Both the position numbers and the translations under genes were made by a program. Positions 9,864 through 26,697 of a stretch of DNA of 38,780 nt are shown here, piece after piece. Positions within the stretch are counted from its first letter, which is position 1. Every line of letters starts with the position of its first letter. Origin of the DNA: Symbiobacterium sp. (GTDB lineage: Bacteria > Bacillota > Sulfobacillia > UBA995 > UBA9673); assembly GCA_020725405.1 (NCBI GenBank), contig DYFB01000045.1, positions 1 through 38,780 of the forward strand, in the 5' to 3' direction. The notes beneath the pieces are model-generated. The model worked only from the letters and a program-made list of their open reading frames with translations, was not told the DNA's origin and did no database searches.

Positions 9864-11897
9864 TTACCGGTCCAGCAGCCTCCTGAGGTCGTCGAGGGCT
9901 TCCCAGGAGAGTCTGGTTTCCGCTGCGAGGCGCCCTATCAGCGACTCGTGCCTCTGGCGGGCCGCGGACGAGATGACCGCCACGACGACGAACAGGAGGA
10001 CGACACCGGCGGCGACTCCTCCGTAGACGAGGCTGTTGTTCACCGTGGGGAAGCGGTCCTCGGCGTTGAGGATCCCGTCCTGGTCGATGTCGACCGCCCG
10101 GGACAGAGCTGACTCGGCCAGGGCGATGGCCTTCTCGTAGTCGCCGGCGGCGAAGGCCTCCTTGGCCTCCTCGAGGAGGCTGCGAGCCCGCCAGACGTGG
10201 TAGCCGGCCTCAGCCTCGCGCTCGACGGCCGCCTCGGCGTCGGAGATGAGGCCCACGGCCGTGCCTCGCGCGTCGAGCTTCGCCGAAGCGAGGGTCTTGG
10301 CCCGGCGGGCGAGGTCGGCGGCTTCCGTGTAGCTCGCCCGCTCGAGGGCCGTCTTCGCCTGGCTGAGGAGCGACTCGGCTTCCGCCACGTCTACGCCGCT
10401 CTTCTTCGCCCGGGAGATGGTCGAGGTGGCCTCGGCCACGGCCGACTGGGCCGCGGATTTCTGGCTCGTCAGGGTCGAGGCGGCCCGCTCGGCCTGCTCG
10501 GCGAGGTCCTTGGCTTTGACGTAATCGGCCTGCTCTAGGGCGGTGCGGGCCTGCGAGAGCTGTGATTGGGCCGTCGGACAGGCGATGCCCGCCGCGACGG
10601 CTTGGGCGACGGCCGACGCCGCCCGGTCGATGGCCGCTACCGCGGCGGTCCGCTGGTTACTGAGGTTGAAGGCCGTGTTCATGGCCTGCTCGGCGAGGTC
10701 ACGGGCCGACCGGTAATGGCCCTGCCCGTAGGCCGTCCGCGCCTGGGTGAGGAGGGCTTCGGCCTGGGTCACGACGACGCCCTTGCTCTTGGCCCGGTCG
10801 ATGGCGTCGGCGGCGTTGGCGATGGCCTGCTGGGCGACGGGCTGGACGTCCCGGTAGTAGACAACCTGCTTACCGCTCCCGGCGACGAGGACGCTCCCGC
10901 CGGCCGAAATGGCGACGTCGCGCACCCCGCTCTCGCTCTTGCTCCAGAGGAGCACTCCGTCCCGGCTGAGAAGGTGGAGCTTGTCGCCGGCCGCGACGAG
11001 GAGCCGGCTTCCGTCCGAGGACAGGGACAAGGCCTGGACCGAGCCGGCCGCGTAGGTCCACAGGGGCGTCCCGCTCGCGCTGGAGAAAAAGTAGACCGTG
11101 GGCGACCCGGTGTGCCCGGCGGCGAGGTAGCGCCCGTCGGCCGAGATGGCCACGGCGTAGGCGTCCTTGGTCCCGCCGCCGATCGGCGTGTACTTCCAGA
11201 CGGCCTTCCCTGCGGCCCGGTCGACGAGGCGCAGGCCCGAGTCACCCTTGGTCAGGGAGTACTCGCGCGGGTCCTCCGACACCCCGTGGACGACGAGGTC
11301 GCCCGAAGCCGAGATGGCCGCGGCTCCGGTGGACGGCTCGCCATAGGAGTAGGTCCAGACCCATTCGTCATCAGGCTCGGACCAGCAACGGACCTCGTCG
11401 CACCAGCCGAGCCAGGAGACCCTGGCCAGCACCAGGTACTGCCCGTCGCTGGAGGACGACACCGTTCGCCCCTTGCTCACGGAGATGGACCAGAGCTTCG
11501 TCCCGCTCTTGTCCAGGGCCAGGAGCTCCCCGTCGCCGAAGTACGACTCCTCCCGGGTGAGCGCGAGGACGGTTCCGAGAGGCGAGACCCAGACGTCGAC
11601 GACCTTCTGCTTGGTGGAGTAGGACCAAAGGCACGTCCCGCTGGAGTTGACGAGGGCCACGCCCCCGGTCGTCCCCACGACGACGAGGCTCGCGTCCGGC
11701 GTCAGGGCGACGGCCTGCACGTCGCCGGTCGTGCGGTAGGTGAAGCCGGCGTCGTAGTCCGCGGCCCGCACCGTCCCGGAGGAGGCCGCAAGGCAGGCGG
11801 CCGCCGCGACCAGAGCGGCGAGCGCGCCGGCCCAGGCCCGCGGGCGAGCCCGCGGTCGTGCCCGCGCCCCCGCCCCCCACCGCTCCCTCCGCCTCAT
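9864..11897 (-). CDS. Signal-anchored beta-propeller protein with helical repeats and C-terminal membrane segment
   Basis: 677 residues, ATG 11897, with AGGAGG 8 nt upstream and an ATGA overlap with the kinase gene. An Arg-rich N-terminus and hydrophobic stretch (about 24-45) form a signal sequence. Residues about 45-340 are a WD40/PQQ-type beta-propeller, with repeated blades such as [33 protein letters not shown] and [16 protein letters not shown]. Residues about 345-590 are four alpha-helical repeats of about 60 residues built on AExLLxQAxxAxxxxxYxxAxxLAxxA. Next is [15 protein letters not shown], resembling a thrombospondin type-3 calcium loop, then one membrane segment (about 620-645) and a 30-residue cytoplasmic tail. 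The propeller should face outside. As the last gene of the phospho-signalling operon it may be the envelope sensor or output. Function is inferred from architecture only. Confidence 0.75.
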
Positions 11898-14350
11898 CGT
11901 CTCGACCTCCTGTCCTCGGCCCGGGCCAGTTCGGCCGCACGCTCCCGGTGGATCTTCTCCACGAGCTGGACGGCCGCCTCGACGACCGCGAGGTGGTCCT
12001 CGTAGGACCGGGCACGCTCCGCCCGGGCACGAAGCTCGTCCAGTCCTCTCACCGAGCCCCCCACCCGGCTGACGGCCTCCCGCAGGGCCTCGACGCGGGC
12101 CACCGCCTCGCGGGCGAGCTCGGCCGCCCGCTTGACGTGCTCCCGGTAGACGTGGCGGGTCAGGACCCCTTCAGTCCGGCGGGTGAGGAAGAGCGAGACC
12201 TCCGCTCGCCGGCAGGTCTCGAGCCAGGCCCTGGCCTTGAGGTCGAGGTCCATCAGCTCCTTGAAGCCGAGTTCCTCGACCGACGTGCCGGCGAGGTCGC
12301 GGCCTTCACCCTCTATCTGCCGCGCCTTCTCCCCCCGGAAGACGTGCTCGTCAAGAGCCTCCTTCACCCGGGCGAGGCGGTCCCTGACCCTGGCCCTGAG
12401 GGGGGACAGCACCGCGGGGTCGTCCCCGGCCCCGGGGTGGATGAGGGCGATGAAGACGGCTAGGCCCCGTTCGGGGTCGGACTCGTAGTCGCCCGCCACC
12501 CGAAGCCACTCGGCCACCTCGTCCTCGAGGCCGCAGGCGGCCGAGATCCAGGTCAGGATCCTTGGATCGGTCGCCAGGGCGGCCCGTCCCCGCCAGTCGG
12601 CGGCAAGGTGCGCGGCGAGGTCCGCCGCGCCTTCGAAGCGCACCCCGTCGAGCTCCAGCGGCTCGTCCGGACACAGCGCGTAGTAGACGCCCCAGAGGGC
12701 CATGCGGTCGCCGGCGAGACCCCTGGAGACAAACCGCCGGATGCGGTCGGCCCGTTCCGGGTCGCCGAGGCGGCGCAGCCAGTCCTCGACCGTGCCGGAC
12801 TCCAGCGCCCGCACCACCTGCAGTTCCACAGCGGCGTCCCTCGAGGCCAGGGCCTCGCCCAGGGTCCGGCCGAGGTCGGCCGGGGTGTCGCAGACGAGCC
12901 CGGAGTAGCAGTAGGGGCCGTCGGGGTCGAGGAGCCCGAGCATGCTGTGGACCCCGCGGTTCTGGTCCCGCTCCTCCTCCTCGATGTCCTGGAGCCGGTT
13001 GGCAAGGTCGAGGTCGAAGGTGCGGGCCCACTCGCGCACGTGCCCGCGGTAGAGGCGCTTTCTCGCCTCCTCCCAGCGCTCGGCCATGGCCCGGGCGAGC
13101 TCGACCGGGTCGGTGTAGTGAACGCCTTCGAAGAGGAAGGAGCGGACCCCGCCGGGAGCGGCCTCGCCCCCGGCAGGCGCCGGCGCCCGGGGGTGGGCCA
13201 AGCCGCGCTCGGCGACGGGAACGCTCTCGCCGGCGAGCCAGCGCCGGACTTCCCGGGGCCCCCATCTCTCCCCCCTCTCCTTGATGAGAAGCCCCTGGAC
13301 AAGGGCCTGGAAGCGCGCCGGGAGAGCGTCGGGGACGGGGAGCCTGCCGCTGAGAATCTGCCGCCGTATCTGCCGCTTTCCCTCCTCCGTTCTCTCCCTA
13401 CCCTCCCAGGGGGACTCCCCGGTGGCCAGCCAGATAAGGGTAACGCCGAGGGCGTGATAGTCGCTCGGCGGGCCGACCTCGCCGGCGTAGGCCTCGGGGC
13501 CGAGGAAGCCGGGGGTGAACCGCTCCAGGGGGACGAGGCTCTCGCCCGGCCGCAGGTGGGCAGCCACGCCGAAATCGCCCACGACCAGGCGCGTGCGGCC
13601 GGGGTCGAGATAGAAGAGGTTCGCCGGCTTGATGTCGGCGTGGACGACCTCGTGTTCGTGGCAGTACTCGAGGACGTCGTTTACGACCCGCACCACGCCG
13701 GTCAGCTCCTCGACCCCGAGCGGCCCCCCGGTCTCGACGCGGTCGAGGAGGCTCCCGCCCTCGGCCCACGGCATCACCTCGTAAAAGCGACCCGCGCTCC
13801 AACCGTGGTCGAGAATAGGCAGGAGTCCGGGGTGCTTGAGGGCGGCGATGACCTGCATGACCTCGGGGTCCGGGTTCACCGTCTCCCTGTAGAGCTTCAG
13901 GGCGAGCCTGTCCGCTGCGGGATGCCGGCCGGTCGTATCCTCGGCCCGGTAGACCCAGGATTGTCCACCCTTGCCGTGGGGGGCCAGGAGCCGGTAGCGC
14001 CCTCCTATGACCTCCCCGGACGGTAATGGAAACTCCTGGCCGGCCTTCCCGAGCTCGTCCCGGGCCCGCAGCCGGCCGAGGTCGCCGGTGGGCACACCCT
14101 CGGGCCGGGCCCCCAGCGGTGCGCCGAGCTCGGCAGTAGGCACGCCCGCGTCCCCTGAAGGCGGCTCGCCCGGGGGCGTCCGCGGGCCAAGGGGGGTGGT
14201 CCCGGGACCACCATCGAGCGCCTCAGATACGAGGGGAATCGTCTCCGCGACCTCACGTGGCGGTCGGTCGTTTCGGGAGCCGGGGACGTCTCCCCCGGCC
14301 CCCCCGGCCGGGCCGGGACGGGCCGGAGGTCCCTCAGGTCTCTCTATCAT
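11894..14350 (-). CDS. Ser/Thr protein kinase fused to an unrecognised module
   Basis: 818 residues from ATG 14350 with AGGAGG at 6 nt, overlapping the previous gene by 17 bp. Residues 1-115 are Pro/Gly-rich and disordered. The kinase domain (about 120-380) has the Gly loop HGKGGQSWVYRA, catalytic Lys in LALKLYR, VVHADIKPANLFY with the catalytic Asp and Asn, GDFGVA for metal binding, and LGPEAYAGE as the APE-like site. All key residues are present, but the usual HRD is HAD, i.e. a non-RD kinase. Residues about 400-780 are a helical module starting SFLFEGVHYTD, with ERWEEARKRLYRG and FDLDLANRLQD. It is clearly homologous to the neighbouring membrane-anchored protein. No membrane segment is present. 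It probably phosphorylates proteins of this operon, recognised by the FHA protein and reversed by the PP2C. Confidence 0.88.
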   Translation of the reverse strand: MIERPEGPPARPGPAGGAGGDVPGSRNDRPPREVAETIPLVSEALDGGPGTTPLGPRTPPGEPPSGDAGVPTAELGAPLGARPEGVPTGDLGRLRARDELGKAGQEFPLPSGEVIGGRYRLLAPHGKGGQSWVYRAEDTTGRHPAADRLALKLYRETVNPDPEVMQVIAALKHPGLLPILDHGWSAGRFYEVMPWAEGGSLLDRVETGGPLGVEELTGVVRVVNDVLEYCHEHEVVHADIKPANLFYLDPGRTRLVVGDFGVAAHLRPGESLVPLERFTPGFLGPEAYAGEVGPPSDYHALGVTLIWLATGESPWEGRERTEEGKRQIRRQILSGRLPVPDALPARFQALVQGLLIKERGERWGPREVRRWLAGESVPVAERGLAHPRAPAPAGGEAAPGGVRSFLFEGVHYTDPVELARAMAERWEEARKRLYRGHVREWARTFDLDLANRLQDIEEEERDQNRGVHSMLGLLDPDGPYCYSGLVCDTPADLGRTLGEALASRDAAVELQVVRALESGTVEDWLRRLGDPERADRIRRFVSRGLAGDRMALWGVYYALCPDEPLELDGVRFEGAADLAAHLAADWRGRAALATDPRILTWISAACGLEDEVAEWLRVAGDYESDPERGLAVFIALIHPGAGDDPAVLSPLRARVRDRLARVKEALDEHVFRGEKARQIEGEGRDLAGTSVEELGFKELMDLDLKARAWLETCRRAEVSLFLTRRTEGVLTRHVYREHVKRAAELAREAVARVEALREAVSRVGGSVRGLDELRARAERARSYEDHLAVVEAAVQLVEKIHRERAAELARAEDRRSRR

Positions 14351-15956
14351 CGCCGGCCTCCTCTGCGCCGGGGCTCTCGCTGTCGTCAGCGGAGCGCGGG
14401 CTGACGCGGGCCACGGCGGCGAGGCGCCTCATGTCGTCAAGGGCCTGCCGGTAGGCGGCAAGGCGGAGCCCGCTGCGCCGCCGTTCCTCCTGCTGCGAGC
14501 GGCGGGCGCTGCTCAGGACCAAGTCAGTAAGCACCAGACCTAGAACCAGGATGAGGGTGAACTTCCCGACCGTGGCCAGAGTCCACTGCATCTCCAGCGT
14601 GGCGTACAGGAACGCGATGGCCGCGGCCGCAAAACCCGGCCAGGTAAACAGCAACCTCAGAACCGTAGCGGTCACCCCCGGCCGGCTCGGGGGCACGGGC
14701 GATCCCTCGCCGTCTTCTCCCGACCTTGCCAGCCTCTCGGCCTCGCCGCGAACCGCCGCCTGCGCCCGCTCGAGAACGGCCAGTCGCTCCTCAAGCTTCT
14801 CCGCCTCGGCGGCCGCCTGCCGTAGGTCGGCGAGGAGGTACCGGGGAAAGGCCCCGCCGAACTCCCGGAGCGACCTGTCAAGGGCCTCGAGGCGGTCCAT
14901 AACCTGGTCGACCGCTCCGGCCGCCGCGGCCACCATGCGATCTACCTCGTCGAAGGTGAAGATGGCCTCTCCGTAGGCTTGGGGTGAAGACGCCCGTCGG
15001 AGCCGTTCCCACCTCTCCAGCCACCGCTGGGTCCGCCTGTGACGCTCGACGATCGTCTGGTAATCGGAGGCGTCCGCCTCGTCGCTCCCGGCGAGCTCCC
15101 GCCCCTCGCGTTCGAGTTCGCGGGCCTCGTCCCCCCAATAGACGTGAGTTTCGAGGAGGGTCCTTACCCGCTCGCACCTGGCCTCGACCCTGGCCCGATA
15201 GGCCTCGACGACCCTGGGCTCGGAGACGGCCTCCGGGCAGACGAGCGGGATGAAGACGGCGAGCCCCCGCTCGCGGTCGGCGGCGTAATCACCGGAGGCG
15301 GCCCGCCAGGCCGCCACCTCCCGGGCCTGTCCCCTCTCGGTGAGCCAGGCCAGCAGAGCCGTATCCCAGGCCAGGCCGGCGCGGCCCGCCCAATCCCTGG
15401 CCAGGAAGAGAGCCACGTCGAGGGGTGTGGCTAGTTCGGAGCCTGCTATCAAGTACGGGCGCTCCGGACAGAGGAGGAAGTGAAGTCGGAAGAGGGTGAA
15501 CTCCCGGTCTTCGGCGAGCCCCCCTGTGAGGTCGTCGACCGCCGCGGCGAGCTCGTCCCGGCCCCGACCGCGCAGCCACTGCGAGAGGAGCCCCTTGGCC
15601 AACGCCTCGGCGATGTGCCCGGCGGACGTCCGGTCTCCGGCACCGAGCGCCCGGCCGAGGGCGGCCCCGACGGCCTCGGGGCTGGCGTGGACCTCGCCCC
15701 GGTAGGCAAAGGCCGTTCCCGGGTGGAGATGGTAGATCATCCGGAAGACGCCCCGGTCCTGGTCGGTCTCGCCCTCCTCGAGGTCCTGGCAGCGGTTGGC
15801 GAGGTCGAGGTCGAAAGCCTCCGCCCAGCGCCGCACCTGACCCCGGTAGAGCCGCTTCTTGGCCTCCTCCCAGTGGTGGGCGAAGGCCTCGGCCAGTGCA
15901 GGCGCGTCGCCGTAGGTCCGGCCCTCGAAGAGAAAGGGCGGTACCTCGCTGGTCAC
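14334..15956 (-). CDS. Membrane-anchored paralogue of the kinase module
   Basis: 540 residues from GTG 15956, preceded by GGGGAGG. Residues about 7-400 match the C-terminal module of the downstream kinase. In the stretch HHWEEAKKRLYRG through RGVFRMI, 33 of 48 aligned residues are identical to the kinase protein. Both also share RGLAVFI and a HVYWGDEAREL/HVFRGEKARQI segment. It has no kinase domain. Instead a coiled coil (about 355-415) leads to two hydrophobic segments, TWPGFAAAAIAFLYATLEM and FTLILVLGLVLTDLVLSS (about 437-485), and a basic cytoplasmic tail. The module is probably cytoplasmic and held at the membrane. I do not recognise the family. It could be a scaffold or receptor pairing with the kinase through the shared module. 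Confidence 0.7.
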   Translation of the reverse strand: MTSEVPPFLFEGRTYGDAPALAEAFAHHWEEAKKRLYRGQVRRWAEAFDLDLANRCQDLEEGETDQDRGVFRMIYHLHPGTAFAYRGEVHASPEAVGAALGRALGAGDRTSAGHIAEALAKGLLSQWLRGRGRDELAAAVDDLTGGLAEDREFTLFRLHFLLCPERPYLIAGSELATPLDVALFLARDWAGRAGLAWDTALLAWLTERGQAREVAAWRAASGDYAADRERGLAVFIPLVCPEAVSEPRVVEAYRARVEARCERVRTLLETHVYWGDEARELEREGRELAGSDEADASDYQTIVERHRRTQRWLERWERLRRASSPQAYGEAIFTFDEVDRMVAAAAGAVDQVMDRLEALDRSLREFGGAFPRYLLADLRQAAAEAEKLEERLAVLERAQAAVRGEAERLARSGEDGEGSPVPPSRPGVTATVLRLLFTWPGFAAAAIAFLYATLEMQWTLATVGKFTLILVLGLVLTDLVLSSARRSQQEERRRSGLRLAAYRQALDDMRRLAAVARVSPRSADDSESPGAEEAGDDRET

Positions 15957-15971
15957 GCGCGGAATCCTCCC

Positions 15972-16481
15972 CTACGTAAGGCTGACGACAAAGCTGTGGT
16001 CGGCCAGCTTCACGATATCCCCCGCCCGGAGCACCCTGGGGACGCCGGGCAACAGGCGCTCGCCGTTCACATAGGTGCCGTGCCTGCTCCTCTCGTCGGT
16101 CATCGTCCACCGGCCCGGCCCGGTCCGACGGAGAGAAGCGTGGCGCCTTGAAACAGTGAGGAGTGGGTCGAAGAAGTCAAGAGCCACGGTCCCCGCCCGC
16201 CCGAGAAGGGCGTCGCCCGTGACGCGCAGCCGGGCCCCGGTGGAGAGGTGGATGAGGACGAGCTGGTCCTCGTCGTCGATGGCCACGGTATCGCATACCC
16301 CGGGCGTCTGGACGGCGGGTGGGCCAGCAACCGGCTCTTGCAGGCGGGCCAAGGGGTTCTCCTCTTGGGGCTCCGAGTAGAAGGGCTGGCCCATGAGAGA
16401 GGTCGGGCAGCGCTCGCAGATGTTCTGCTCGGCCGGGTTGACGTGCCCGCACCTGGGGCACCGGACGACCAGGCGCGCCAT
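15972..16481 (-). CDS. Zinc-ribbon/FHA phosphothreonine-binding protein
   Basis: 169 residues from ATG 16481, whose A is also the last base of the phosphatase TGA stop, so translation is coupled. Residues 1-30 form a zinc ribbon with two CxxC pairs (CPRCGHVNPAEQNICERC). Residues about 70-168 are a forkhead-associated domain: LLGRAGTVALDFFDPLLTVS, RRHASLRR, and SRHGTYVNGERL supply the conserved Gly-Arg, Ser, His and Asn-Gly residues that bind phosphothreonine. It is the natural reader in an operon that also encodes a Ser/Thr kinase and a PP2C phosphatase. Small zinc-ribbon FHA proteins often act as adaptors. The partner is unknown. Confidence 0.9.
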   Translation of the reverse strand: MARLVVRCPRCGHVNPAEQNICERCPTSLMGQPFYSEPQEENPLARLQEPVAGPPAVQTPGVCDTVAIDDEDQLVLIHLSTGARLRVTGDALLGRAGTVALDFFDPLLTVSRRHASLRRTGPGRWTMTDERSRHGTYVNGERLLPGVPRVLRAGDIVKLADHSFVVSLT

Positions 16482-17374
16482 CAGCCGGCACCCCCCTCTC
16501 CGGCGACCCCGGCCGAGCCGGCAGACCCGGTGACCTCGGCCAGGATGATTGTGACGTTGTCGTGGGCCCCTCCGGCGAGGGCCGCATCGAGCAAGGTCTC
16601 GACCGCCCCCCGCAGGCCCGGGCGGGCGGCGAGGATGGCCTCGATCGCGTCGTGGCTGACCATGTCCGAGAGACCGTCGGTCGCCAGGAGGTACCTGTCG
16701 CCGGGGTGGAGGGCCGGTGCGGCGTGCTCCACGGTCGGGTCGAGGTCCTCCCGGCCGGACCCGAGGCACTTCCACACCCCGGAGCTTCCCCGGGGGGCTT
16801 CTGTGCCGAACGGGCCGTCGAGCCGGCCCATCTCGGCCTGGGAGTGGTCCACCGTCAGGGCCTTCAGGATGCCCTGCCGGAAACGGTAGACGCGGCTGTC
16901 CCCGGCGTGGAAGGTCACGGCTCCCCAGGCGGCGTGGAGGTGCACCCCGGCGACCGTCGCTCCCATCCCGGCCTGCTCGGGACGTCCGGCCGCCTGGGTC
17001 AGGATGGACCGGTGGGCCCGTTCCAGGGCCTCGCGCCAGAAGGAGGCGGCCTCGGCCGGGGTCGCAGCCCGGAGCTGGCTCTGGACCAGGGCCAGGCTCT
17101 CCAGGGCGAGGCGGCTGGCCACCTCGCCGGCCTCGTGCCCGCCCAGTCCGTCGGCCACAGCCAGGGCCAGCCCGGACCCGACCACGGGACCCGATTTCAG
17201 GACCTGGGTCGCGGAGACCGGCACGGGGACCGCGCCGCTCGGCGCCTGGCAGACCAGTCCCGCGACCATGAAAGCGTCCTCGTTGCCCTTCCGCACCAGA
17301 CCCCGGTGGGTCACGGCCGCCACCCTGACCTTGAGGTCAGGGTCAGGGCCGTGGCCGGGCGCCTCGATCGTCAT
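16481..17374 (-). CDS. PP2C-family Ser/Thr phosphatase
   Basis: 297 residues. I choose ATG 17374, which has GGGAGG at 8 nt, over the GTG three codons earlier that overlaps this site. It carries the full set of PP2C metal-binding and catalytic motifs: THRGLVRKGNEDAF, ALAVADGLGGHEAGEVAS, GMGATVAGV, FHAGDSRVYRF, LLATDGLSD and GGAHDNVTIIL. Soluble bacterial PP2Cs of this type (Stp/PrpC-like) need Mn2+ and reverse Hanks-type kinase phosphorylation. No membrane segment or extra domain is seen. It lies directly upstream of the FHA gene and near the kinase gene, so it is the likely eraser for that circuit. Confidence 0.95.
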   Translation of the reverse strand: MTIEAPGHGPDPDLKVRVAAVTHRGLVRKGNEDAFMVAGLVCQAPSGAVPVPVSATQVLKSGPVVGSGLALAVADGLGGHEAGEVASRLALESLALVQSQLRAATPAEAASFWREALERAHRSILTQAAGRPEQAGMGATVAGVHLHAAWGAVTFHAGDSRVYRFRQGILKALTVDHSQAEMGRLDGPFGTEAPRGSSGVWKCLGSGREDLDPTVEHAAPALHPGDRYLLATDGLSDMVSHDAIEAILAARPGLRGAVETLLDAALAGGAHDNVTIILAEVTGSAGSAGVAGEGGAG

Positions 17375-17470
17375 CCTCGCCACCTCCCCGGAACTGCGTC
17401 CTGCCTGCTAGCTCCGTCCTCCCGCTGAATGCGTCCTCCCTCGATCTCCCTGCCAGCTCCCGCCGGTGGA

Positions 17471-19120
17471 TCAGGGCCGGATCCGCCCGGCCGCGGCCCG
17501 CCCGCTCTGACGCCGCTTCTGGCGGGTGCCGGCGCCCGCTTTCCGCTTGAGGCCCTTCGGGGCCGGCATCACCCTCGGGCGGGCGGGTTCGTTCTCGTCC
17601 CTCCACCGCTCCTCGAGCCTGACGACCCCCCGCTCCTGCATCCGGCGGACCATGGCCGTGTAATCCTCGCACCAACTCCTGGTCTGCCGGGCCAGGCGGT
17701 CGCTCTCGACGGGCGTGGGCTCGGCCGTCTCGGAACCCGGCTCGACGAACCTCACCACCTCCGAGAGGACGGCCCCGTCGCCGGCCACGGATACGGAGAC
17801 GCCCCCGCCGTGGGGGGACAGGAAGACCTGCTCGAGGGGCGCGTCGGCCATCGGCCTCGCCGGGGCCGGATCGGTCAGGGCCTCGTAGCCGAGCTCGGCC
17901 AGCGCGTCCCTGACGAGGTCGAGGACGCGGCGGCGGTGCGCGTCCTTCTCGAACCTCGAGCGGGCCAGGCCGGCGAGCGACCTCGTCTGGTCGAGCCACC
18001 GCTCGACCTCGGCGGGCTCCGGCCACGGGCGCTCGGCGAGAGCGACCCCCTCGGCAAGGGCCGCCTCGAGTCCCGCGGCATCCGGCGACCCGGACCTCGC
18101 AGCCGCCAGGGCCCGGAGTTCCTCCATGGCGCCGGCCATCGTCGCCTTCATCCGGTCCCGCTCCTCGCGGCGTTCGGCCACCCGCCGGGCGTGCCGTCCG
18201 AGCTGGCGCCCCAACTCGACCAGCTGGGCGGCGGCGTAGCGCGGGCTGTCCCGCATGGCGGCGAAGGTCCAGACCGCCCTGGCGAGATCCTCGACCTCCG
18301 GGCGCATCTCCGGCGGGAGGTCGGCGTCCAGCTCGGCCAGCACCCCGCGGACAGCGGCCGCTTCCCTGGCCAACGCGGCCAGGGCCTCGGCCGTTCCGGC
18401 CGGGCCGTCCTCCGCGGCGGGGCGCTCCTCCTCGGCCCGACCGTCCTGCGGAGAGGGGGAAGGGGCCTCCCCTTCCTCCCCACCGCCCGGCCGGGGGGGC
18501 TCAGCGGGATCGGCGGCACCGCCCGCCGCCGCCGGGCAGGCCCGCTCGGTCCCGGCCCGGGCCGCCGCGGCCGGGGCCCGACGCTCCGCCTGGCGCGGCG
18601 CCGCCGCAGACCGGCCAGCGGACCGCGCCTCCGAGGCCTTCTCGCCGGCAGGGACCGCGATGCCGGTGAAGACGCGGGCCTCGAAGGACTGCCTCCGGGC
18701 CTCGGCCACACCCTCCTCGACGTGCGGCAGGTAGGCCTTGAGAGCCCTGAGCTGGCTCTCGGCCGCGGACAGGAGGCGCTGGGCCTGCTCGCGCGTCCGG
18801 GCGAGGGCCTCCGCGCCGGCCTCGTCGTCGGTGTCCGGAAACCCAGCCATGAGGGCCTCGAGCGCGCGGCGGCGGTACTCGAAAGCCCCGAGGGCCGGGG
18901 CCGCCGCCGGGTGGCCGGCGGCCTCGCCTCCGAGCCGCTCCGCGCGCTTGGCGAGGTCGGCCGTCTCGGAGGCCAGCGTCTCAAGCCGCCCGCGGAGGCG
19001 CCGGAGCTCGGCCCGGATGGCCTTCCGGCGGTTTTCCTCCTCCTGGCGGCGGCGCTCCTCCTCGAGCCGCCGGGCCTCGGCCTCGGCCAGGCGAGCCTCG
19101 GCGTAGGTGACTCGGCTCAA
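17471..19120 (-). CDS. Coiled-coil protein of the AAA+/kinase operon, unknown function
   Basis: 549 residues. The TTG at 19118-19120 overlaps the TGA of the AAA+ gene (TTGA), but the ribosome binding site is weak, so translation is probably coupled. Residues 5-70 are a charged coiled coil (EARRLEEERRRQEEENRRK). Residues about 95-165 are helical; 170-255 are a low-complexity Ala/Pro/Glu linker; 260-400 are again helical; 400-505 form a mixed domain containing VFLSPHGGGVSVSVAGDGAV, SEVVRFVEP and WCEDYTAMVRRM. The C-terminal 40 residues are very basic (KGLKRKAGAGTRQKRR) and could bind nucleic acid or acidic lipids. No family is recognised. Its position suggests a scaffold or substrate of the AAA+ protein. 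Confidence 0.65.
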   Translation of the reverse strand: MSRVTYAEARLAEAEARRLEEERRRQEEENRRKAIRAELRRLRGRLETLASETADLAKRAERLGGEAAGHPAAAPALGAFEYRRRALEALMAGFPDTDDEAGAEALARTREQAQRLLSAAESQLRALKAYLPHVEEGVAEARRQSFEARVFTGIAVPAGEKASEARSAGRSAAAPRQAERRAPAAAARAGTERACPAAAGGAADPAEPPRPGGGEEGEAPSPSPQDGRAEEERPAAEDGPAGTAEALAALAREAAAVRGVLAELDADLPPEMRPEVEDLARAVWTFAAMRDSPRYAAAQLVELGRQLGRHARRVAERREERDRMKATMAGAMEELRALAAARSGSPDAAGLEAALAEGVALAERPWPEPAEVERWLDQTRSLAGLARSRFEKDAHRRRVLDLVRDALAELGYEALTDPAPARPMADAPLEQVFLSPHGGGVSVSVAGDGAVLSEVVRFVEPGSETAEPTPVESDRLARQTRSWCEDYTAMVRRMQERGVVRLEERWRDENEPARPRVMPAPKGLKRKAGAGTRQKRRQSGRAAAGRIRP

Positions 19121-21207
19121 CGTCCACCCGCTCCCTCAGCGACGGCCGCGCCGCCGCGCTCGAGCCTGCACGTCAGGAACACGGTCCCGTCCTCCGCCTC
19201 GGTCAGCCGCTCGACAACGAGGGTCCCCGGACCCGAGAGGTCGTGGTCGAAAATGTAACGGGCGAGCGGGTTCACGAGGTCCTTCTCGAGGACGTTGCCG
19301 ATGCCCCGCCCGCCGAACTCCAGCTTCTCGAGGGAGCGCCTGAGAAGCTCGGCGTGGGCCTCCGGGGTCAGGTCGAGCCCGAGGCCGCGGGCGGCGGAGA
19401 GCCCCTTCGCGACGTTCCCGATCATCTTGTCCATGATCTCGGCGGCCACCGGGGGCCGGATGTAATCGAAGATGACGAAGTTCTCTCCGAAGCGGTTCAG
19501 GAGCTCCGGGCGGCCCAGTTCCTGGGTGAAGAAGGTCTGGATGTAGCCCCGCGTGTTCTTCTCCAGCACCTCATAGTCGGGTGGCTCTCCTTTGTAGGCG
19601 AACTCCCCGAGATTGCTGGTGAAGACGAGGACGCTCTCCGTGAAGTAGACCGTCTCCCCCCGGCCATCGGTGATGCGCCCGTCGTCTATGATCTGGAGGA
19701 ACTTGTCGAAGAGGCTCGGGTGGGCCTTATCGATCTCATCGAAGAGCACCACGGAGAAGGGGCGCTGCCGGACGGCCTCGGTCAGTTGACCTCCAGACTC
19801 GTAGCCGATATAGCCCGGGGGGGCGCCGAGGAGGCGTTGGTCGGTATGCCCGTGCTGGTACTCGCTCATGTCGAACCGGATGCAGGCGTGCTCGTCGCTG
19901 AACAGCAGCTCGGCGAGACCTTTGGCCAGCTCCGTCTTCCCCACGCCGGTCGGCCCGGCAAAGAACAGGACGCCCTTCGGCCGGGTCGACTTCGCCGATT
20001 GCTGGATTCCGGCAAGACCCACCCGGGCCCGTTTGAGGATGTCCAGGGCCTGCCGGATGGCGTGGTCCTGGCCCTTGACCCTGGCCCGGAGCTGGGCCTC
20101 GGCCCCGGCGAGGCGGGCGCTGTCGACCTCGTCCCAGGGGCTCTTCCTGACGCCGAAGCGATAGAGGTCGACCAGCCCGCGGACCTCGGCGACAGGCGCC
20201 TCGGCCCGCTGGCTCACCAGGCGAAGGGCCTCCAGGTCCGCGCTCTTCATCCCCTCGGTGAGGTCGACGAAAGCCCGCTTGACCTTCTCCCGCTCCTCGC
20301 CCTCGAGCTCGCGGCCCCCGTGGAAGTCATCAAGATAACGGTCGATGTAGCGGCGGCGGACCGTCACCGCCGGCCGCTCGATATCCACGAGCTTGACGAA
20401 GGGGTTCTCAAGGTAGAACCAGGCCGGAAGGTCGTTGGCCTTGTCGGCGAGGAGGATGACCACGTTCCGGAGAAGCCGCTCGCCGCAGAGCACCGGACGG
20501 GCCTCCCGGACGGCCTTACAGAGCCTCGAGAAGACCTCCCGTTCGTCCTCGCTGAGCGTCTGGGGGTCCCCGAGTAGGCGCGAGGCCAGGTTGACGACGA
20601 CGGCGACGCTCGACTTCGGGTTCCCGAGGGCCGACCGGATGTGGTCCATGGCCTGGTTCGGACCGACCGGCCAGCAGTCCGGCCCGGCCGGAGCCTGGTC
20701 CCCGGCCCAGGCCGAGGCCTCTTCCGCCCCACCGTCGCCCGCGGGCGCATCACCACCCCTGGCAGCGCCACCAGCGCCCCCGGGCCCGCCACCACCGCCC
20801 CCGGGCCCGCCACCGCCGCCCTCGGCCGCGCCGCCGCCACCCCCGCTTATCGAGGTCCGCCCGCCGGCCGCCTGGCCGCCCTCGCCCGCCGCCGCCCGGG
20901 ACGCCGGCCGGCTCGAGGCGAGGCCCCGGAACCGGTCCAGCGTGCGCCGCCCGTCCCTCGACCGGAAGCCGTCGACGAAATCGTAGAAGACCACGGTCTC
21001 GTACCCCTGGGCGAGGAGGAGCCGGTGGAGGAAGGCCTCGGTGTCCACAAAGTGCCACATCGGCTCGGACGACGACTCGCGCGGTATCGGGTAGGCGTGG
21101 TAGTCCTGGATGTTGCCGTGAAGGACGAAACCCGACCGGGCCGGCAGAAACCGCAGGAGCTCCTCGGCCCACCGTGGGAAACTGGCGGTCTCGATAGGAC
21201 GCGACAC
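19117..21207 (-). CDS. ClpB-like AAA+ ATPase with degenerate first domain
   Basis: 696 residues from GTG 21207, with AAGGAGGGG at 6 nt overlapping the previous TAA stop. The N-terminal half (about 1-310) looks like an AAA fold without a Walker A. It opens with GFVLHGNIQDY and retains a Walker-B-like VAVVVNLASRLL and a sensor-like NVVILLADKANDL followed by FVKLVDIERP. It is interrupted by a Gly/Ala/Pro-rich linker at about 105-170. The C-terminal half (about 360-680) is a full Clp/Hsp100 ATPase: Walker A GPTGVGKTELA, pore-region GAPPGYIGYESGG, Walker B VVLFDEIDKAH, sensor 1 VFTSNLGE, arginine finger GRPELLNRFGE and sensor 2 GGRGIGN. The aromatic pore loop suggests protein threading or remodelling. 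No ClpN domain, ClpP-binding motif or T6SS genes are seen. Confidence 0.88.
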   Translation of the reverse strand: MSRPIETASFPRWAEELLRFLPARSGFVLHGNIQDYHAYPIPRESSSEPMWHFVDTEAFLHRLLLAQGYETVVFYDFVDGFRSRDGRRTLDRFRGLASSRPASRAAAGEGGQAAGGRTSISGGGGGAAEGGGGGPGGGGGGPGGAGGAARGGDAPAGDGGAEEASAWAGDQAPAGPDCWPVGPNQAMDHIRSALGNPKSSVAVVVNLASRLLGDPQTLSEDEREVFSRLCKAVREARPVLCGERLLRNVVILLADKANDLPAWFYLENPFVKLVDIERPAVTVRRRYIDRYLDDFHGGRELEGEEREKVKRAFVDLTEGMKSADLEALRLVSQRAEAPVAEVRGLVDLYRFGVRKSPWDEVDSARLAGAEAQLRARVKGQDHAIRQALDILKRARVGLAGIQQSAKSTRPKGVLFFAGPTGVGKTELAKGLAELLFSDEHACIRFDMSEYQHGHTDQRLLGAPPGYIGYESGGQLTEAVRQRPFSVVLFDEIDKAHPSLFDKFLQIIDDGRITDGRGETVYFTESVLVFTSNLGEFAYKGEPPDYEVLEKNTRGYIQTFFTQELGRPELLNRFGENFVIFDYIRPPVAAEIMDKMIGNVAKGLSAARGLGLDLTPEAHAELLRRSLEKLEFGGRGIGNVLEKDLVNPLARYIFDHDLSGPGTLVVERLTEAEDGTVFLTCRLERGGAAVAEGAGGR

Positions 21208-21220
21208 TCAGGACCCCTCC

Positions 21221-21889
21221 TTAGGACCGCTCCTTCAGAACCACTCCGCGCCGCCGGCAAGCGGCCTCGAACCGCTCGACGTCGCCCCGCTCGGGGATGC
21301 CGACGATGAAGAGCTGGCCTCGCTCGTCTATCCCCACCTCCAGCGGCCGCCGGCCCGGGTACTCGGCCTCGATTAGGTGGCCGTACCGCTCCCGGGCGAG
21401 GTCCGTCAGAAGGTGCATCCGCTGGTTCGCCGACCCGCGCCAGAGTTTGCGGGTGGGCTGGTCCTCCCGGAAGCGGCCGTCGATGAGGATGTCAACGAGG
21501 CCGAGGAGCTCGAGGGCCGCCGGCCCCTGCCGGCGGAGCTCCTCGAGAGTGTAGCCGCTGTAGACCAGGACGTCCCCGAGGCCGAGGGCCCTCAATTCCC
21601 TCACGAGCCCGGCCACGGCCGCCGCCTGGTCGAAGGGCTCCCCGCCGGTGAAGGTCACCCCGTCGACCCGGCCCGCGAGCGGGGCCAGGCGCTCGGCCAC
21701 CAGCCGGACCGGCTCACCCGGTCCCGAGCCCCGCCGGGCGAGCTCCGGGCTTATGCAGCCGGGGCAACCCAGGTCGCAACCCCGGACCCAGAGGGCGACG
21801 CGGGTCCCGGGACCCAGGGTCCGGACGGGATACTGGACGCGGTCGAGATCGAGAGTCGCGCCCGCGGGAGGGTGTCCGCTCGGCCGTAT
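21221..21889 (-). CDS. Radical SAM activase-like 4Fe-4S protein
   Basis: The frame carries the NrdG/PflA-type signature: VRTLGPGTRVALWVRGC, the cluster motif CDLGCPGC (CxxxCxxC) and the SAM-binding FTGGEPFDQ, ending at TAA 21221. It is about 220 residues, normal for anaerobic activases that install a glycyl radical. The frame is open back to a TAA at 21904-21902, yet no ATG, GTG or TTG occurs before the cysteine motif. The ATA at 21889-21887, 8 nt after GGAG, is the only plausibly placed codon; an ATG at 21895-21893 is out of frame. The start is therefore unresolved (non-standard codon, frameshift or sequence error). No glycyl-radical enzyme is nearby. It lies 13 bp before the AAA+ gene and probably opens the operon. 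Confidence 0.8.
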   Translation of the reverse strand: MRPSGHPPAGATLDLDRVQYPVRTLGPGTRVALWVRGCDLGCPGCISPELARRGSGPGEPVRLVAERLAPLAGRVDGVTFTGGEPFDQAAAVAGLVRELRALGLGDVLVYSGYTLEELRRQGPAALELLGLVDILIDGRFREDQPTRKLWRGSANQRMHLLTDLARERYGHLIEAEYPGRRPLEVGIDERGQLFIVGIPERGDVERFEAACRRRGVVLKERS

Positions 21890-22085
21890 GGGGCCATCTC
21901 CTTACCGCCGGGTCTCCGGGACGACGCGGGGGGCGAGGGAGACAGGTTTTCGGAGGACGTGGCGGCGTCGTCTGGTCGTCCCGCTGGAATCTACAACGCG
22001 GGGAACCCGGTTCCCTCTTTAGGCCGTGCGGCTCCCAGCCCTCTGGAGCCGGGGCGCCCCGGCCCTTTCGAGGCGGTCCCCGCCC

Positions 22086-25803: not shown

Positions 25804-26697
25804 TCACCTGACCCTCACATTGCCGAAGGTGAAGTCGATGGTGATGAAGAGCCGCGGGAGGGTCGCCCGGGTCTCGCCAGCCCCGGCGGCTTCGCCGCCA
25901 GAGGCGGGCTCGTCCTGAGCCGCCCCCGTTCCGGCCGCGCTCTCAGCGAACCCCGTCCGGGCTGCGTCGGCGTCGACCGCGACCGCGCGCCTCGCGGTCA
26001 CGAGGCTGGCCCCGAGGCCGCTTCTCTCCTGGCCGAACACCCTGATCTCGCCGGCCGTGCACGAGGCGTCGACGAAGACGTCAATCCCCTCGGGCGCCCG
26101 GATATCGACGTCGCCCGCCCAGGCCGAGACATAGAGATAGTTGTCGCCGGGGGCGAACTGCGCCGTCGTGAGGTCGATGTCGGTGTCGCCGACCCAGAGG
26201 TCGATGGTCATCGGAGACTTGAAGACCCACGGGCGCGAGCCGTAGTGAAGGTCTCCGACCAGGCTCGAGACGCAGCGCGCCGGCCGGTCGGAGAAGACCC
26301 GCTCCTCACGGACCCACTTCCAGGGGGAGCGGCGCGGGCGGAGGAGGATGACGACCCCCAGCCCGACGAGGAGGAGCGGCAGGGACCAGCCGGCGACCGC
26401 CCCCCAGTTCGCCTCGATGAGGCCAAGGTTGTGGAGGAGCTGGGCCGTCGCCCCGGCGAGGACCCAGAGGAGAATCAGGCTGAGCCCGAGGCTCCGCCCG
26501 ACGAAAACGCGGGTCACCCGCCGCCCCCGGTGGACGGTGACGAACAGCCGCCGGGCCAGCATGGCGAGGATCGGCCAGATCACGAGGAGCGGCCAGAGGC
26601 TCCAGACGCTGAACGAGCCGATGTAGCCGAGGTTCGACAAGATGAGCAGGACTCCGACGATAACGAGGACGCTTCCCCAGAACACCCTTCCGGTCAT
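25804..26697 (-). CDS. LiaF-like membrane protein
   Basis: 297 residues from ATG 26697. Four membrane helices (about 5-135) begin with VFWGSVLVIVGVLLILSNLG, the DUF5668 hairpin, and end with a basic RPRRSPWKW. The C-terminal half has the LiaF/YvqF 'cell-wall-active antibiotics response' pattern: VSSLVGDLHYGS, IDLWVGDTDIDLTTAQF, YLYVSAWAGDVDIRAPEG, and a terminal ITIDFTFGNVRV strand. A low-complexity Ala/Gly segment (about 245-275) interrupts it. In Bacillus, LiaF inhibits the LiaRS envelope-stress system; no LiaRS pair is adjacent here. The ribosome binding site GGAAGGGAG lies in the 3' arm of a strong hairpin, suggesting translational control. Confidence 0.85.
   Translation of the reverse strand: MTGRVFWGSVLVIVGVLLILSNLGYIGSFSVWSLWPLLVIWPILAMLARRLFVTVHRGRRVTRVFVGRSLGLSLILLWVLAGATAQLLHNLGLIEANWGAVAGWSLPLLLVGLGVVILLRPRRSPWKWVREERVFSDRPARCVSSLVGDLHYGSRPWVFKSPMTIDLWVGDTDIDLTTAQFAPGDNYLYVSAWAGDVDIRAPEGIDVFVDASCTAGEIRVFGQERSGLGASLVTARRAVAVDADAARTGFAESAAGTGAAQDEPASGGEAAGAGETRATLPRLFITIDFTFGNVRVR

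Follow-up and report, generated by a model that had tools for sequence, protein, structure and literature searches.

The window analysed here, a stretch of 38,780 nucleotides on contig DYFB01000045.1 of a Symbiobacterium sp. assembly, carries eight open reading frames on the minus strand at positions 9864–21889. In the 5' to 3' direction, these encode a NrdG-like radical SAM protein of about 222 aa (21221..21889), an AAA+ remodeller of 696 aa (19117..21207), a coiled-coil protein of 549 aa (17471..19120), a PP2C Ser/Thr phosphatase (16481..17374), a 169 aa phosphothreonine reader with a zinc ribbon and an FHA domain (15972..16481), a membrane-anchored module protein of 540 aa (14334..15956), a Ser/Thr kinase with the same module (11894..14350) and an exported beta-propeller protein (9864..11897). 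A first-pass annotation had described eight same-strand genes here, most of them overlapping by 1–17 bp. All eight reading frames were found on that strand and in that place, while "most" is slightly generous: four of the seven junctions overlap (by 4, 17, 1 and 4 bp), and spacers of 15, about 96 and 13 bp separate the genes at the remaining ones. Its domain assignments were borne out by searches of Pfam and NCBIfam, which returned Fer4_12/Radical_SAM, AAA_2 with ClpB_D2-small, PP2C, FHA with a zinc ribbon, Pkinase and a WD-type propeller; the coiled-coil protein had no family match in either collection.

The radical SAM protein retains intact CxxxCxxC and GGEP motifs, and the CxxxCxxC motif is invariant in 24 of 24 relatives. 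In these motifs, and in being a small radical SAM protein, it resembles NrdG and the glycyl-radical activases; indeed, NrdG is its best NCBIfam match, at 97 bits, a score below the curated cut-off of 126 bits. It differs from them in having a dedicated AAA+ neighbour and a genome in which no glycyl-radical substrate was found. Family searches detected no NrdD in seven of eight host genomes and no Gly_radical domain in five of the eight, the genome of the window, which is 95% complete, being negative for both. The protein cannot, therefore, serve a glycyl-radical enzyme in this genome, unless the gene for one lies in the missing 5%, and it is not a classical activase, its substrate lying elsewhere. 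Hence, the earlier label "activase-like" holds for the sequence of the protein and not for the presence of a partner. It could be argued from the NrdG match that an ordinary activase gene came to lie beside a signalling operon by accident; given the score below cut-off, the missing NrdD and Gly_radical partners and the linkage to the AAA+ gene in most loci (see below), we regard this as very improbable.

The start of this reading frame is unusual. Its 5' end holds no ATG, GTG or TTG, and a non-canonical ATA lies at 21889 with a good Shine-Dalgarno sequence. A standard start is missing in two genera, with ATA in the window (21840–21905) and ATC in a sister genome (L033, 1160–1200), 8 nt past a Shine-Dalgarno-like stretch; the two 5' regions differ by 9 nt in length, and the frame is kept. 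Non-AUG initiation or a frameshift from a nearby ATG are both possible readings of this arrangement.

The AAA+ protein was assigned by Pfam, alignments, an AF2 model (pLDDT 83) and Foldseek. It shares with the ClpB and ClpC unfoldases a ClpB-D2-type second ring in which Walker A and B, the aromatic pore loop (GYxGY, with its pore-loop Tyr) and the Arg finger are intact, as well as the two-ring fold. Foldseek aligned the model to two-ring ClpC/ClpB chains over about 500 columns with E-values down to 2e-31; a difference in ring orientation would account for the moderate TM-scores (about 0.4–0.5). In contrast to these unfoldases, no Clp N-domain is recognised, the first ring is degenerate and lacks a Walker A/P-loop, with LHGNIQD at the end of its first strand in the window protein, and the second ring carries DQRL where ClpC has VSRL (xSRL). 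A Gly-rich insert of low confidence occupies residues 104–173. By eye, no ClpP-docking [LIV]G[FL] tripeptide was seen after sensor 1 of the window protein, and for this reason a remodeller appears likelier than a protease partner. The AAA+ proteins of two further loci (L048, 2565–4763; L049, 8335–10398) bear a Cys-rich, zinc-ribbon-like insert past sensor 1, near the site of the ClpP-docking loop in ClpA/ClpC.

The coiled-coil protein ends in a conserved domain with a predicted alpha-beta3-alpha arrangement (pLDDT 84), and relatives often possess an N-terminal TM segment as judged by hydropathy. The best PDB match of the domain, RnlA, is not significant (E 0.04). Among 17 diverse members, the only invariant column of the domain is a single cysteine, Cys484 of the window protein. 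A profile search across all loci, including those of the helicase–PIN type described below, returned a cysteine in 35 of 35 rows that cover this position, a number that includes duplicate records of one genome and corresponds to about 30 independent sequences; two rows are gapped here, namely L106, where the cysteine is present by eye, and L099, a chance match in a control. The domain is common to the signalling and helicase contexts (hhalign E 1.6e-4, at a probability of only 50%). The Cys484 domain would be the likeliest substrate or docking point of the radical chemistry. An invariant cysteine beside a dedicated radical SAM enzyme is the strongest mechanistic lead at this locus, although the residue could alternatively have a structural role.

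The catalytic and binding motifs of the phosphosignalling proteins are likewise intact: the metal motifs ADGLGG, GDSR, TDG and DN in the PP2C phosphatase, GR...S..H in the FHA domain, and the HAD and DFG motifs in the kinase. Of 16 kinase reading frames with at least 450 aa and >440 bits against the profile, 11 have one or two TM segments at the C-terminus by hydropathy. The window kinase has none; instead, the separate 540 aa protein combines the kinase module with two C-terminal TM segments and a cytoplasmic tail. That these two proteins carry the same module, as first proposed, is clear from a local alignment score of 674, the mean for shuffled sequences being 50. The module itself has no match in Pfam, NCBIfam or the PDB, and its repeats of about 75 residues were upheld for some pairs only (best z 6.4 and 5.2, one pair negative). 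In the sister genome, module, TM and tail all reside in one 872-aa kinase, and the helical tail of the module protein (14337–14504) matches the C-terminus of that kinase (z 12.1). The module protein probably arose, by duplication and partition, from a membrane kinase of the kind still intact in the sister genome. An Armatimonadota locus (L064, 13229–16396) encodes a PP2C–kinase fusion in a 1055-aa reading frame, and the eraser is therefore tied to the writer.

The propeller protein comprises a signal peptide, the propeller, helical repeats, a Ca-binding-like loop, a TM segment and a helical cytoplasmic tail of 35 residues (9867–9971), the last of which aligns with that of the sister kinase (z 10.6). 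Because this tail, like that of the module protein, resembles the one of the sister kinase, the propeller protein probably docks to the same partner. The propeller was not found in 40 relatives, and the gene after the kinase varies by locus, encoding Fn3/RodZ_C, FGE-sulfatase, BON or unknown proteins. The suggestion that the propeller is a probable outside sensor is thus to be refined: it is specific to the window genome and occupies a variable "sensor" slot, where the tail shared with the sister kinase still speaks for its belonging.

The AAA+ N-terminal domain alone was used as a query against about 85,000 species genomes and returned 31 loci, an undersample given that a single peptide pattern was searched. 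These loci are from Bacillota, Actinomycetota (Hakubella, Nitriliruptoraceae), Hydrogenedentota, Armatimonadota, Pseudomonadota, Thermodesulfobacteriota, Spirochaetota, Bacteroidota and UBP4. With plasmid matches added (including Geminocystis, Cyanobacteriota) and duplicates removed, the final set comprised 37 loci from about ten phyla, chosen on the AAA+ gene only; L036, tried as a relative, is a ClpC and was dropped. Up to 10 kb away from the AAA+ gene, a radical SAM gene is present in 33 of the 37 loci and a coiled-coil gene in 28 (27 by profile, and L073 by profile–profile comparison), together with FHA (23/37), kinase (20/37) and PP2C (19/37) genes; several of the misses are contig ends. 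The same profiles found none of the partner genes in the 20-kb surroundings of 12 ClpB/ClpC genes. The profiles were partly built from the counted loci, and new loci are the fair test: in all eight later loci, which lay outside the building of the main profiles, the radical SAM gene adjoins the AAA+ gene, in most cases with several other genes. Since the set stays together from phylum to phylum and the ClpB/ClpC control neighbourhoods lack it, the arrangement goes beyond chance clustering; the eight genes are a real operon.

Rather than being scattered, then, the coiled-coil, AAA+, radical SAM, FHA, PP2C and kinase genes lie together across phyla, held-out loci included. Of the eight genes whose co-occurrence the first-pass annotation had proposed to test, these six are linked, three of them constitute an invariant core, and the propeller is not conserved. 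Gene order varies: a relative of another genus in the same family has radical SAM–AAA+–coiled-coil–PP2C–FHA–kinase, and order-level relatives have coiled-coil–AAA+–radical SAM–FHA–PP2C–kinase–membrane protein. Against two ClpB-type sequences, the AAA+ proteins form a monophyletic family (support 100/100). Horizontal transfer is suggested by the clustering of the Armatimonadota copies with the Bacillota copies (100/100). No radical SAM gene lies within 10 kb in L058, L060 and L085 (contigs of about 20 kb), with a copy about 9 kb upstream in L085, and some lineages may manage without this gene; L058 and L060, a gammaproteobacterial and a Thiomargarita MAG, retain the AAA+ gene and have no radical SAM gene nearby. 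Two Armatimonadota loci carry genes that by eye resemble those of flagellar export beside the operon (L063, 114–6193; L064, 136–5102).

The T6SS threonine-phosphorylation pathway (PpkA, PppA and Fha1, with ClpV) clusters a membrane Ser/Thr kinase, a PP2C phosphatase, an FHA protein and a Clp-type ATPase, and the operon unites the same four activities. Unlike T6SS, it adds radical SAM and coiled-coil partners and its AAA+ protein has a degenerate first ring. The TssB/VipA sheath protein was found in none of ten host genomes (the E. coli control being positive), which rules out membership of a T6SS. TerD is absent from the same number of genomes, which likewise rules out the Ter systems; TerY-P/Ter systems share a PP2C phosphatase and a kinase with the operon and differ from it in their vWA proteins, none of the eight operon proteins having a vWA match. 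The earlier statement that T6SS, vWA and Ter genes are lacking is thus confirmed within this scope.

The MoxR-vWA-FtsH ternary conflict systems (eLife 2020, PMC7159879) combine an AAA+ machine and a radical SAM protein, some of them with propellers, and in one subtype a radical SAM effector is set on a vWA–MoxR–FtsH base. The operon, however, has neither vWA nor MoxR; its AAA+ protein is of the Clp D2 type, and its control layer consists of a kinase, PP2C and FHA. Neither PADLOC 2023 nor NCBIfam 2026 yielded a system-specific model, with domain-level or below-cut-off matches only, and a search of openly licensed full-text papers revealed no named system, the MoxR-vWA systems (PMC7159879) being the only related ones. 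The system of the operon appears, as the first-pass annotation supposed, to be unnamed; this bears the caveat of a minor, by no means negligible, chance that it has already been described elsewhere in the literature.

The composition, the intact motifs and the conserved linkage support the circuit of kinase, FHA, PP2C and remodeller that had been read from the operon, now refined to a three-gene core. Taken as a whole, we propose a membrane-linked, phosphorylation-gated protein-remodelling system, a model that we hold with a little less than even confidence. In this model, the double-ring Clp-type AAA+ ATPase would partner the coiled-coil protein and the dedicated NrdG-like radical SAM enzyme. 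The kinase, membrane-anchored in most relatives, would sense a signal, here probably via the exported propeller and the module protein, as the cytoplasmic tails of both resemble that of the sister kinase. It would then phosphorylate Thr sites, which the zinc-FHA protein would read before recruiting or gating the AAA+/radical SAM core. The AAA+ protein may remodel the coiled-coil protein and so expose its cysteine to the radical SAM enzyme, which would act on or through this protein, and PP2C would reset the circuit.

The same parts could instead serve envelope-stress proteostasis: the envelope would be monitored by the kinase and the propeller, misfolded or membrane-associated protein would be handled by the AAA+ remodeller, and the radical SAM protein would act as a redox or SAM sensor and not as a modifying enzyme. 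The membrane kinase, the exported propeller, the TM-anchored coiled-coil protein of many relatives and the variable, often membrane-anchored product of the gene after the kinase are all in keeping with this, as is a gene resembling LiaF, of a cell-envelope stress family, at 25804–26697, about 4 kb upstream of the operon. We nevertheless consider it improbable: the radical SAM protein retains its cluster and GGEP motifs, suggesting catalysis, and the same core occurs beside a helicase and a PIN protein without any envelope parts.

Indeed, in Vibrio, Pseudoalteromonas, Colwellia, Acinetobacter, Polaromonas, Moellerella and one Bacillota-phylum genome, the genes of the core come after those for an SF1 helicase and a PIN protein, and such loci frequently sit on plasmids or next to IS elements. 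These members form one clade inside the AAA+ family tree. The invariant core of the system is thus the coiled-coil, AAA+ and radical SAM trio, and the phospho-circuit is one of its two contexts. On an Aristaeella plasmid, the two meet, with helicase, kinases, FHA, PP2C and core together. On a Rhizobium plasmid, the AAA+ and radical SAM genes are neighbours of an FHA-like gene and of a fusion between a kinase and a DUF4011/AAA_11/AAA_12/MTES_1575 nuclease. The helicase of the sibling loci is MkoA-like, and this, with the kinase–DUF4011 helicase–nuclease fusion of Rhizobium, recalls Mokosh/Hhe-type SF1 helicase defence; in contrast to the latter, the core here is the trio, and neither a helicase nor a nuclease is encoded in the window operon.

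The helicase–PIN context is the main ground for a further alternative, a biological-conflict (anti-phage or anti-plasmid) system in which the core would act as a switch and license effectors that attack nucleic acids, the kinase version of the window being a sibling with another, unrecognised effector. The plasmid and IS settings, the Rhizobium and Aristaeella loci and a weak resemblance between the Vibrio radical SAM protein and viperin agree with such a role, as does the patchy distribution of the AAA+ gene (8 of 154 genomes of the class and 13 of 398 of the phylum), which is therefore not that of a housekeeping circuit. We find this reading possible but rather doubtful, as the window operon and most kinase-type loci lack a nuclease or helicase, the PADLOC matches are at domain level only, the kinase version is bound to membrane and outside-facing domains, and no relative was found in viral contigs. 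A phage origin was discarded on the same ground, the best matches in phage records spanning the ClpB-like half only. The plasmid variant was not detectable at the DNA level in E. coli genomes.

If the phosphorylation-gated system that we favour is real, it represents a multi-gene system of about ten phyla that is so far without a name. To our knowledge, phosphothreonine signalling, Clp-type remodelling and radical SAM chemistry have not previously been shown to work jointly. That the same three genes recur next to a helicase–PIN pair on plasmids points to a portable switch serving signalling as well as conflict. More tentatively, and with some doubt on our part, the trio may be a hitherto undescribed portable machine in which a Clp-type remodeller offers its partner's invariant cysteine to a dedicated radical SAM enzyme, and which plugs into either Ser/Thr phosphosignalling or a helicase-nuclease unit; protein chemistry by a radical SAM enzyme would then, for the first time, be seen under the control of phosphothreonine signalling and AAA+ remodelling. 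The invariant cysteine and the named hosts (Desulforhabdus, Vibrio, Colwellia, Polaromonas and Aristaeella) make the system directly testable.

The helicase-bearing loci also show some variation in gene content. In a Bacteroidetes locus, the helicase is accompanied by a Ppx/GppA-domain protein; this 1097-aa protein (L071, 5734–9027), with a C-terminal Ppx/GppA phosphatase domain, stands in the place of the PIN protein. The helicase–PIN version of the Bacillota-phylum genome (L106) has a second, larger radical SAM-like gene downstream, and a further radical SAM gene (15251–16237) lies beside the copy on the Acinetobacter plasmid (L081).
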